DNA of 58,687 nt from contig NZ_JAFZKX010000029.1 of assembly GCF_017551775.1 (NCBI RefSeq), positions 1 to 58,687 on the forward strand. The letters run 5' to 3'. This stretch comes from Fibrobacter sp. Lineage in GTDB: Bacteria; Fibrobacterota; Fibrobacteria; Fibrobacterales; Fibrobacteraceae. Every line of letters starts with the position of its first letter. The stretch's first letter is position 1. The translations under genes were made by a program, and so were the position numbers. The notes under the pieces are model-generated. The model saw nothing but the letters and a program-made list of their open reading frames with translations. It was not told the DNA's origin and did no database searches. This document shows positions 672-6,094 of the stretch, in pieces.

Positions 672-744
672 CTCTATAGTTTTTGCTCATTATCCCTTCT
701 ACGTTTTACTACCTTTCTATCCGGAAAAAATTAAACCCAAATTC

Positions 745-3700
745 ATGGATCATACTATGAGCATCAAAGATTACCTCGCCGGCGCCAAGATGGCCGGTTC
801 CGTCCAGAAACTCATGACACCGGGCCTCGCCGTGGAATTCATCCAACCGTGGTACACCCCGCTTTCCACGACGCCCTCCACCACGGGTATCGCCGTGGGC
901 GGTATCGGCTCTACGTTTACGGCAACACCTGCCGGCACAACTCCCGTGATGAACGTGATGCCGGGCGTGCAGGTCCGCACCGAAAAGCCCGCCGACCTCC
1001 GCTTCAACAACTTCTTCTTCCGCGAATCCGTGATTGGCGCCAAGGCCGCCCTCGAAATCGGCGACTTCGCCGGCTTCACGCAGATGCTCGCCAAGTACCC
1101 GCTCGTGGACGCCAAGGGCGAAGCACTCTTTACCGCCGCTGAACTTGCCGACAAGAAGAAGGCCGAGGCCAAGCTCAACAAGGCCATCGCCGAAAAGGAT
1201 TTCTTCAAGAACAACAAGGCCGCCTTCGAACGCTGGCACATCGAATGGAGCGACCGCACCGCCGCCCTCCTGAACAAGGCCGGTGCAGAACTCAACCGCA
1301 GCGCCGTCATCGACTTCTTCAACGGCGTCGTCGGCGAAAAGATTGCCCGCCAGGGCGCCCTCACCGCCGCCTGGGCAGACGACAAGGAATTCCTGGGCCA
1401 AGAAGGCTACGATGCCGCCAAGATGCAGTATAGCGCCCTCTACCCGGTGAGCGAAACCAAGTACGAAGGCAAGGGCGTGCAGATTGTGAAGACCCAGTCC
1501 AGCTACGTGACTCCGGGTGACGAACGCCTCTCCAGCCTCCCCGTGAACGCCACCGTGTTCACTCTCGAAAACACCACCAAGGAAGTCCGCGAAGTGACCA
1601 TCGTACAGGTGCAGGACTGCATCGCCGGCTACATGGCCAAGAAGGACCGCCAAGGCGTGCAGGACTCGAGCTTCGTGCTCGTGCCGTCGGCCCGCTTCCC
1701 GAAGGGTGTCAAGTTCAGCAAGACTGCAAGCGACGGACGCGAAGTGCGCGGCCTGCAGTTCTACAACGAGAAGGCTCTCGCCGAAAGCGACTTCAACGGT
1801 TGCATGGGTGTTTCCGTTGCCTGGAACAAGAAGGATAACCTGAACGTCTCCGTGAAGCCGATGTTCTACCAGGACGACGCCGCCTCCGTGCTGAAGGGCG
1901 CTCTCCGTAGCGGCCGCGTCAGCGAATCCTGGGTCAAGAACGTCTACAGCGGCCGCGAAACGATGGCCGGTGCCGTCGCCGTGACCGTGGTTTTGAAGCC
2001 CAAGCAGAAGGTCAGCTTCCAGTTCAACCTGGTGCTCGACTTCCCCGAAATCAAGCTGAACAAGCTCACTTCCGCCAAGAAGTACACCGCCTTCTACCCC
2101 GAAGCATTCGGCCGCGTAGAAGCCATGCTCGACGAAGCCCTCTCCGCCGACAAGAACTTCGACGCCCGCCTCAAGGCCTTTGAAAACCTCGTGCCGAAAA
2201 AGGCCGTCGCCAAGATTTACAAGACTGCCGCCAAGCAGAACGAATTCAAGAGCCTCGCCATCAACACGCTCAGCTTCCTCGCCGAAGCCACCGTGTGGGA
2301 CAAGGACGACCGCTTCCTCGTTCGCGAATGCGCCGACTATCCGTTCTTCAACTCGCTGGACGTCTACTTCTACGGTAGTTTCAGCCTCATGGCCCTCATG
2401 CCGCGCCTTGACGGCGTGGTGATGAAGCGCTTCGGTGACGCCATCCTCGCGGTGAACAACAACCGCCGCCGTCACCACGAATACGTGAACCATCCGTTCG
2501 CCGACCTCCCGGATCCGAAACTCGAAGGCCCGCGCGCCGTGCGTGGCGCCGTGATTCACGACCTCGGAAGCCCCTTCGATGCCGAACCGGATGCCTACGA
2601 CTGGCACAACGTGAAGGAATGGAAGGATCTCGCCCCGAAGTACGTGCTGATGGTTCTCCGCCACTTCCACAAGACGCAGGACATGCAGAACCTGCAGGAC
2701 TGCAAGGAAGCCGTCTATGCCGCAATGGAATACCTCGAGAAGATGGTGAACGAAGGCGAAAACTTCCCGCTCACCCACGGTACTGACGATACGTTTGACA
2801 ACCTCTCCAGCCACGGCATTTCCGTGTACTGCGGTAGCCTCTGGATTGCCGGCCTCCGTGCTGCGGCCAAGATTGCCGAACTCCTCGGCGACAAGGCCCA
2901 GGCCGACATTTGGAACGCCAAGGCCGACTCCGCCAACAAGGAATTCGACGAAGCCCTGTGGGACGAAGCCGAAGGTTACTACCACTTCTTCGTGACTCCG
3001 ATGGAAGCCAAGGACATCGTTGCCGACAAGCTCCCGAAACTGGCTGATGCCATCAAGGAAACTCTCGTCATTGACGGTAACGACGTGAAGGCCGCCCTCA
3101 AGGCTATCAACGAATGGCTCAACTCCGGCGAAATTCCGAGCGACGTGGAACTTTCCAAGAACGAACTCCGCGGCCTCAAGAAGGCATGGCTCACCGCCCA
3201 GTGCAAGGAAGCCTTTACCGCCAGCTGGAACGCCAAGATCGCCAACGACTGCGACGACGTCTTCGCCGACACGATGCTCGCCGACACCTACCTCCGCCTC
3301 CTCGGCCTGAAGCCGATCAGCGACGAAAAGAAGGCCAAGGCGAACCTGCTCCGCGTATTCAACACGAACTACAAGGCCAACAGCCCGCTCATCGGTGCCG
3401 CAAACCTTGTCCGCAAGGATGGTTCTCCGCTCGATGAATTCAACTTCCAGGCTCACGACGTATGGATCGGCATCCAGTACAGCATCATGACCGCCATGAT
3501 GTTCCACGGCCTCGAGAAGGAAGCTGCCGTCATGGGCGATTCCATGATCCGCAACCTCTACGACGAAGCCCGCATCCCGTTCGCCGCACCGGAAGGATTC
3601 AACGGCTCCTGCCGCCTGCACCCGGAAGCGCTCGTGAAGGCTTTCGGCCTGAGCGCTACCGCCGCCGACAAGATGCACAAGGAACTCCTGAAGAAGGGCG

Positions 3701-3894
3701 CCCTCCTTGCCGACAGCCGCATCAGCCCGAAGCTCCCCCGCAATCTGCCCGCCTTCGTGAAGGCCTTCGGCGCCATTGCCAAGAGCAACAAGGTTGAGGC
3801 GAGCGCGCTGTTCATGCTGCTCCACAGCACGGCTCTGAAGTACACCGCCGGCAAATACTTCCGCCCCGGCATGGTGTTCGCTCTGCTGTATTAA
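745..3894 (+). CDS. GH116 family glycosidase (GBA2-like), cytoplasmic
   Basis: This 1049-residue protein belongs to the glycoside hydrolase 116 group, relatives of the non-lysosomal glucosylceramidase GBA2 and bacterial beta-glucosidases. An N-terminal beta-rich domain (about 1-480) is followed by the alpha/alpha barrel. Family landmarks are LDVYFYGSFSLM (about 538-549), IHDLGSP, GTDDTFDNLSSHG (679-691) followed by YCGSLWIAGL, and DVWIGIQYS. By comparison with the family, D685 in DDTFDN is the likely acid/base. The nucleophile region ECADYPFFNSLD (528-539) is less clear: a Glu sits at 528 and an Asp at 531. There is no signal peptide, so it probably acts on imported oligosaccharides or glycosides. 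It is longer than typical bacterial members of about 800 residues. The start could instead be ATG 757 (MSIKDYL); neither has a clear Shine-Dalgarno. Codon use is strongly GC-biased. The substrate is not known. Confidence 0.82.
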   Translation: MDHTMSIKDYLAGAKMAGSVQKLMTPGLAVEFIQPWYTPLSTTPSTTGIAVGGIGSTFTATPAGTTPVMNVMPGVQVRTEKPADLRFNNFFFRESVIGAKAALEIGDFAGFTQMLAKYPLVDAKGEALFTAAELADKKKAEAKLNKAIAEKDFFKNNKAAFERWHIEWSDRTAALLNKAGAELNRSAVIDFFNGVVGEKIARQGALTAAWADDKEFLGQEGYDAAKMQYSALYPVSETKYEGKGVQIVKTQSSYVTPGDERLSSLPVNATVFTLENTTKEVREVTIVQVQDCIAGYMAKKDRQGVQDSSFVLVPSARFPKGVKFSKTASDGREVRGLQFYNEKALAESDFNGCMGVSVAWNKKDNLNVSVKPMFYQDDAASVLKGALRSGRVSESWVKNVYSGRETMAGAVAVTVVLKPKQKVSFQFNLVLDFPEIKLNKLTSAKKYTAFYPEAFGRVEAMLDEALSADKNFDARLKAFENLVPKKAVAKIYKTAAKQNEFKSLAINTLSFLAEATVWDKDDRFLVRECADYPFFNSLDVYFYGSFSLMALMPRLDGVVMKRFGDAILAVNNNRRRHHEYVNHPFADLPDPKLEGPRAVRGAVIHDLGSPFDAEPDAYDWHNVKEWKDLAPKYVLMVLRHFHKTQDMQNLQDCKEAVYAAMEYLEKMVNEGENFPLTHGTDDTFDNLSSHGISVYCGSLWIAGLRAAAKIAELLGDKAQADIWNAKADSANKEFDEALWDEAEGYYHFFVTPMEAKDIVADKLPKLADAIKETLVIDGNDVKAALKAINEWLNSGEIPSDVELSKNELRGLKKAWLTAQCKEAFTASWNAKIANDCDDVFADTMLADTYLRLLGLKPISDEKKAKANLLRVFNTNYKANSPLIGAANLVRKDGSPLDEFNFQAHDVWIGIQYSIMTAMMFHGLEKEAAVMGDSMIRNLYDEARIPFAAPEGFNGSCRLHPEALVKAFGLSATAADKMHKELLKKGALLADSRISPKLPRNLPAFVKAFGAIAKSNKVEASALFMLLHSTALKYTAGKYFRPGMVFALLY

Positions 3895-3917
3895 GACCGC
3901 TCGTGCTTAATCTGAGC

Positions 3918-3946
3918 AACGCCCAGTTAATACTGGGCGTTTGTTG
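3918..3946 (+). terminator. Intrinsic terminator after GH116 gene
   Basis: A perfect 9-bp stem AACGCCCAG / CTGGGCGTT with a TTAATA loop, followed by TGTTGTT, lies 24 bases after the GH116 stop codon. Confidence 0.75.
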
Positions 3947-3999
3947 TTCACGAAAAGTAAATAGCGGCTTGACTTCGGCTGTTTTATCCTCAAGCTTAA

Positions 4000-5824: not shown

Positions 5825-6025
5825 CTAGGCACACAAAGGAAAATCCCCCGCATCGGCGAGGGACTTCTTGTGTTTCAAGTTCCGGTTGTACTTTGTCTTG
5901 TCGCGGACAACCCTAGTCCGTAACGTGGCTCCGTTCTGGGAGCCGTCTATGCGGAGCATGCGCATTACATCGCTTTCTTTGGCATCGGCAACCTTGCCGA
6001 CCGCCTTGCACTTGTGTCTAGCCAT
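5825..6025 (-). CDS. Small basic protein, candidate ArfA/BrfA-like ribosome-rescue factor
   Basis: The 66-residue ORF opens MARHKCKAVGKV and has a perfect AAGGAGG ribosome site 5 bases before the ATG; the upstream in-frame TTG at 6046 has none. The middle is polar and the C-terminal half is very basic, with TRVVRDKTKYNRNLKHKK at 37-54. That stretch resembles, from memory, the L-R-x-R-V...K-x-x-Y-x-R-x-x-K-H pattern of ArfA-type factors, which bind stalled ribosomes lacking a stop codon. After KHKK the remaining 12 residues (SLADAGDFPLCA) are unlike the rest, and their codons form a hairpin followed by a T-run. The transcript would then often end before the stop codon, as known for arfA and brfA genes. 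The coding call is fairly safe. The functional assignment is an inference; it could be an unrelated basic protein. Confidence 0.6.
   Translation of the reverse strand: MARHKCKAVGKVADAKESDVMRMLRIDGSQNGATLRTRVVRDKTKYNRNLKHKKSLADAGDFPLCA
5837..5862 (-). terminator. Terminator-like hairpin inside the coding region
   Basis: On the minus strand CCCTCGC, loop CGAT and GCGGGGG form a 7-bp stem with one G-U pair (5845-5862), directly followed by ATTTTCCT (5837-5844). An outer ACACAA/TTGTGT pairing could extend it. It covers codons 55-63 of the small basic protein, ahead of the stop codon at 5825-5827. Confidence 0.65.
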
Positions 6026-6094
6026 AGGGGCCTCCTTGAGTGACAAATATAAATATTTATATTTTATGTAAATAATCCTAAAAAGGAGAATACC

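Follow-up and report, generated by a model that had tools for sequence, protein, structure and literature searches.

A putative ArfA-type ribosome rescue gene of Fibrobacter with a hairpin inside its reading frame

The reading frame and its internal hairpin

Fibrobacter is a plant-fibre-digesting bacterium. The window, which is the whole 58,687-nucleotide stretch of a Fibrobacter sp. contig that was analysed, includes a small open reading frame (ORF) on the minus strand with the following features.

6031..6037, minus strand: Shine-Dalgarno sequence AAGGAGG, in nearly all homologues within the genus Fibrobacter
5825..6025, minus strand: 66-codon ORF MARHKCKAVGKVADAKESDVMRMLRIDGSQNGATLRTRVVRDKTKYNRNLKHKKSLADAGDFPLCA, proposed ArfA-type ribosome rescue factor, with homologues in 66 of 80 genus genomes
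5864..5923, minus strand: codons 35-54, LRTRVVRDKTKYNRNLKHKK, aligning with ArfA LFRxRVxKxKKGKGSYxRKxKH
5840..5867, minus strand: in-frame 12-bp hairpin, core 5863-5844, loop CGAT, codons 53-62
5835..5843, minus strand: interrupted U-tract TTTTCCTTT after the GC stem, the point where conservation ends
5825..5836, minus strand: frame end, codons 64-66 and an apparent chance stop codon, unselected as judged from conservation and stop-spacing data

The ORF starts with ATG (6025-6023) and ends with TAG (5827-5825), and the original prediction of a 66-codon gene with a perfect ribosome binding site was confirmed in its ORF, start, stop and AAGGAGG. The hairpin, GAAGTCCCTCGC-CGAT-GCGGGGGATTTT, is GC-rich and lies entirely ahead of the stop codon; its earlier placement at 5845-5862, also before the stop, was correct within a few bases. 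A T-run had been proposed at 5837-5844, and a U-rich tract does follow the stem but is not pure, as CC interrupts TTTTCCTTT (5843-5835).

The fold had a free energy of -21.5 kcal/mol over 43 nt (z = -5.05) and none of 200 shuffles was equally stable. As a terminator it scored d = 15.7, which ranked 26 among the 40 terminators in 270 kb of the source genome. Terminators at the same threshold were located inside only 2 of the 218 sense genes of at least 100 amino acids in these 270 kb, and the in-frame hairpin is more than chance. No second copy was found elsewhere in the source genome, so the hairpin is not a dispersed repeat, and the region had no Rfam match. The interrupted U-tract and the moderate terminator score suggest that cleavage by RNase III or trimming may contribute, and termination or cleavage and trimming would either way yield a nonstop mRNA. 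The U-tract at 5835-5843 is the predicted zone of mRNA 3' ends, at about codons 62-63, which would give a product of about 62-63 amino acids.

Two other observations were made in these data. A 1,038-codon open frame at 709-3825 of the window (minus strand) is nearly exactly antisense to a long plus-strand gene (745-3894) and is probably a codon-bias artefact. Two hairpins with a TTAAT loop, one at 3908-3952 of the window and one around 6182 of locus L196 (minus strand), had the common tail TTTGTTG(T/C)TCACG and resemble a recurring element, of which only two copies occurred in 270 kb.

Hairpin and stop codon among relatives

Within the genus Fibrobacter the gene was absent from 14 of the 80 genomes, five of them of high quality, and it was present in 35 of 40 in the high-quality subset (completeness of 90% or more, contamination of 5% or less). 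A profile search gave matches in 71 of the 111 genomes of the family; four extra family genomes were recovered by profile at E <= 0.01 (two from genus g6, one from g9 and one from g11). A DUF7230 search added a member from outside the family but within the phylum (G111). Weak matches from families elsewhere in the phylum (G112, G131, G132, G139, G151 and G152) look spurious, as with ribosomal-protein-like frames, and were rejected. A scan of contigs outside the phylum with a strict pattern gave a single match, which lay on a Clostridia contig and had an ordinary stop. Literature searches returned no report of such a rescue factor in Fibrobacter, and a survey published in 2024, covering more than 15,000 genomes, recorded no arfA among its 1,956 FCB-group genomes (PMC11633108).

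The hairpin was in frame in 72 of the 75 gene copies read. The other three were the G002 copy, a broken one in G056 and, in G048, a divergent second gene that had no hairpin. In the G002 copy (L100, G002:C76:72312-72494), which is located at a contig end, the 3' arm of the hairpin was replaced and a stop codon was followed by an ordinary terminator; this copy may have escaped from gating or may be an artefact of the contig end. In a further homologue (L103, G005:C1:683010-683228) inserted residues separated KHKK from the codons of the hairpin, which was itself intact.

Among 55 distinct sequences the hairpin occupied the same codons, and standard pairs were present in 98.3% of pair cells compared with 42-63% when the partners were slid. 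The four third codon positions of the core stem were 100% conserved against 72% upstream, and two loop positions varied (0.66 and 0.62). The paired third bases of synonymous Lys and Asp codons covaried (Fisher p = 0.005, not a strict probability as the sequences are related) and other stem changes were compensated, for example CCUUCGC/GCGGAGG and CCAUCGC/GCGAUGG. Between 0 and 3.6% of random synonymous recodings folded equally well. On this comparative evidence the hairpin is judged to be under selection as RNA. Hairpins of other sequence were present in four distant homologues (the second copy of G035, G105, G108 and G111), in each case in frame, before the stop codon and after the same basic motif, and those of G108 and G111 were canonical terminators with a stem plus U-run. 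In sister genomes (L249 and L250) a stem of the same type, here followed by a pure U-run, lay just past the stop codon of unrelated ORFs, which is the position of an ordinary terminator.

With 65 distinct sequences aligned on KHKK, the 30 codons leading up to this motif had a mean identity of 76%; the figure rose to 88% for the hairpin and fell to 70% for the 8 nt that follow it. Past this 8-nt tail, successive windows had 28.5%, 27.2% and 27.5% identity, the level of unrelated sequence, and this sharp loss of conservation coincided with the end of the U-tract. Depending on the copy, the stop codon was located 3-228 nt beyond the conserved part. Past the U-tract, the reading frame ran for a median of 17 codons to its first stop, and the two alternative frames for 16 and 17 codons (Mann-Whitney p = 0.64 and 0.66; mean of 17.1 expected by chance). 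The stop codon therefore appears to be under no selection, with a random position.

Conservation that ends at the U-tract and a randomly placed stop suggest that selection acts on an mRNA that lacks a stop codon and has its end at the hairpin, and an mRNA of this kind is the simplest reading of the alignments. The ArfA-type trait of a nonstop mRNA made by way of an in-frame hairpin is thus indicated by comparative evidence (conserved hairpin, unselected stop). The original prediction had named conservation of the hairpin and of the KHKK region in relatives as tests, both of which came out in its favour, and the nonstop mRNA that it proposed is supported by the halt of conservation exactly at the U-tract and the random stop placement.

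Similarity to ArfA and to phage proteins

Neither the source genome nor the Fibrobacter protein gave a match to the Pfam ArfA model (PF03889) at its curated cut-off and the Fibrobacter family is not a PF03889 member. The protein had no NCBIfam match, and its only Pfam signal was a sub-threshold one to DUF7230 (PF23876) over residues 38-55 (22.5 bits versus a cut-off of 27), a model with which a relative in G102 scored 27.1 bits. The KGKGS motif of ArfA was absent, with DKTKY, three residues shorter, in its place, and the N-terminal half was unrelated to ArfA. No GGQ occurred in the protein, which thus differs from ArfB, defined by a GGQ domain plus a basic tail. Sequence searches of the PDB with profiles built from the family only (A1 and A2) matched no solved chain, and hence none of BrfA. 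A strong PDB match of alignment A6 was circular, since A6 includes ArfA itself, and was discounted as evidence. AlphaFold2 modelling of the family alone predicted no fold of its own (pLDDT 52, pTM 0.20), an outcome that agrees with an ArfA-like protein but is no evidence for one.

The link to ArfA was found through phage proteins. A Pseudoalteromonas phage J2-1 protein annotated as ArfA passed the cut-offs of both Pfam ArfA (41.3 bits, cut-off 25.5) and DUF7230 (28.6 bits) and matched ArfA chains of solved ribosome complexes. Its FRTRVERDKTKYRRKKKHK shared 14 of 19 residues (74% identity) with the Fibrobacter LRTRVVRDKTKYNRNLKHK, and the corresponding sequence in a second viral protein (L242) was TPLFRMRVERDKTKYTRRKKHK. 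When the Fibrobacterota family profile was compared with ten ArfA sequences, the same residues aligned as expected (p = 0.007 and 3e-4); the hhalign probabilities were just 5 and 39%. In this register L35 corresponds to ArfA F25 and K51-H52 to the KH motif. F25 of ArfA packs in a pocket of RF2 and the Lys-His motif is common to ArfA and BrfA (PMC6299226, PMC6881298). The core LRTRVVRDKTKYNRNLKHK matches the RF2-contact strand and the mRNA-channel tail of ArfA by way of the phage bridging proteins, and the ArfA-type trait of a basic K-H tail with an RF2-contact strand is seen, from sequence only, as LRTRV...YNRNLKHKK in the ArfA register. The similarity covers about 20 residues and may thus have arisen by convergence. 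Of the ArfA-like protein type originally proposed, the alignment of the core with ArfA through the phage proteins stands while a direct PF03889 match does not.

A 243-kb viral contig (L233) encoded a close homologue with 57% identity over 49 residues, including RIxGxxNGxTLRTRVVRDKTKY. This viral frame had an ordinary stop right after KHKETTENE and no hairpin, so the extra codons of the bacterial gene, SLADAGDFP, seem to serve the hairpin.

Among known rescue factors, ArfA (YhdL; PF03889) of E. coli and other Gamma- and Betaproteobacteria resembles the Fibrobacter protein in being small and basic, in the RxRV strand, the aromatic-x-R and K-H tail motifs and a hydrophobic residue at the F25 position, and in a nonstop mRNA from an in-frame hairpin, which in Fibrobacter is inferred. 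RNase III cleavage or 3' trimming at the hairpin has been reported as the main source of the nonstop mRNA of E. coli arfA, whose C-terminus encodes a hydrophobic degradation signal (PMC3989581), whereas the Fibrobacter sequence after the hairpin appears unselected; the other differences from ArfA are the lack of KGKGS and of a PF03889 match and the unrelated N-terminal half. BrfA (YqkK) of Bacillus subtilis also comes from a nonstop mRNA, through an in-frame intrinsic terminator, and its active product has about 62 amino acids with Lys-His at 49-50 compared to 51-52 in Fibrobacter (PMC6881298), although BrfA is confined to Bacillus and relatives. ArfT of Francisella is likewise a small basic factor that recruits release factors, but it has about 40 amino acids and a KKGGSTNKK tail and apparently does not come from a nonstop mRNA (PMC6299226). 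DUF7230 (PF23876) and the families phrog_2701, phrog_18092 and phrog_6310 share the RDKTKYxRKxKHK tail with the Fibrobacter protein, while the viral members read stop ordinarily shortly after KHK and have no in-frame hairpin.

Proposed mechanism and alternative explanations

The source genome included tmRNA with the tag ADENYALAA, SmpB, RF1 and an RF2 with the SPF motif, and no canonical ArfB was identified in it. A third RF-1-domain protein with GGQ (SGPGGQHRNKTNT; L204, G000:C70:34823-34981) was also observed in this genome and is neither RF1, RF2 nor a canonical ArfB. The idea that the rescue gene and ArfB have complementary distributions was set aside, given the nature of this third protein and since its counterparts in other genomes were covered by counts only.

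The gene very probably encodes an ArfA-type, trans-translation-gated rescue factor of Fibrobacter whose message would end before the stop codon. The best reading is that an ArfA-type factor of this kind was previously undescribed in Fibrobacterota, the nonstop logic itself being that of ArfA and BrfA. Judging from the pattern of selection, transcription would end at the in-frame hairpin, or the RNA would be cut or trimmed back to it, to leave an mRNA without a stop codon. With trans-translation working, tmRNA-SmpB would rescue the stalled ribosome and the product of about 62 residues would be tagged with ADENYALAA and degraded; with trans-translation failing or overloaded, untagged product would accumulate. 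By analogy with ArfA, the basic KTKYNRNLKHKK tail would then enter the empty mRNA channel and the LRTRV strand would bring in a release factor, most probably RF2, which would free the stalled peptide, including on the mRNA of the rescue gene itself.

How the nonstop mRNA arises could differ from simple termination, and a rather unlikely variant of the rescue-factor reading is that it comes mainly from RNase III cleavage or 3' trimming, as for E. coli arfA (PMC3989581). The interrupted U-tract, the moderate terminator score and the conservation of the entire 12-bp stem agree with this variant, while the conserved bases of the U-rich tail and the canonical stem plus U-run terminators of the distant homologues in G108 and G111 point to termination. 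A 12-bp stem is also short for RNase III, which speaks against cleavage. It is improbable that the gene encodes instead a small basic ribosome- or RNA-binding protein of other function, with a terminator that drifted into the frame and was tolerated. Small basic proteins are numerous and the U-tract is imperfect, but in-gene terminators are rare (the 2 of 218 genes given above), distant homologues repeatedly carry in-frame hairpins of different sequence, the stop codon appears unselected and the core motif matches ArfA and phage proteins that resemble rescue factors.

The overlap of a small ORF with a terminator would also be expected of a leader peptide and attenuator controlling a downstream gene. 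This explanation is highly unlikely and was largely refuted by the lack of conserved gene neighbours; the downstream neighbour and its strand vary among genomes, and the gene is conserved at the amino acid level, with third positions freer upstream of the hairpin. Conservation of SLADAGDF within the genus might in turn mean that the hairpin sequence is fixed merely by these amino acids, or the hairpin could have entered the gene as a mobile or repeated palindrome, and there is very little likelihood of either. A dispersed palindrome was ruled out by the uniqueness of the hairpin in the source genome, and a hairpin dictated by SLADAGDF is countered by the rarity of synonymous recodings that fold as well, by the other amino acids and other hairpins of the distant homologues and by the viral homologue L233, in which an ordinary stop right after KHK closes the same core and there is no hairpin.

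Backup rescue factors that depend on a release factor are known from few groups only (ArfA, ArfT and BrfA), and such factors are species-specific. If the rescue-factor reading is correct, the same self-sensing logic would be present in another phylum, with direct evolutionary evidence of an unused stop codon. It would also offer a sequence-based search route to further factors, namely small basic KH-motif genes with conservation ending at an in-frame hairpin and a random stop position, and it hints at what DUF7230 and several unnamed phage families do.

The chances are about even that ArfA, DUF7230, the phage small-protein families and the Fibrobacterota family form one superfamily of release-factor-recruiting proteins with an RVxRDKTKYxRKxKHK tail, in which in-frame terminators were repeatedly and independently gained in bacterial lineages for trans-translation gating and the phage copies are ungated with an ordinary stop. 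The phage proteins with the RDKTKYxRKxKHK tail are candidates for phage-borne rescue factors. These proteins of 40-50 amino acids (families phrog_2701, phrog_18092, phrog_6310 and DUF7230; loci L149:520-675, L205-L209, L233, L235, L236 and L242) were observed in phages with the hosts Staphylococcus, Campylobacter, Pseudomonas, Pseudoalteromonas and others, and an ordinary stop codon was present in all those read.
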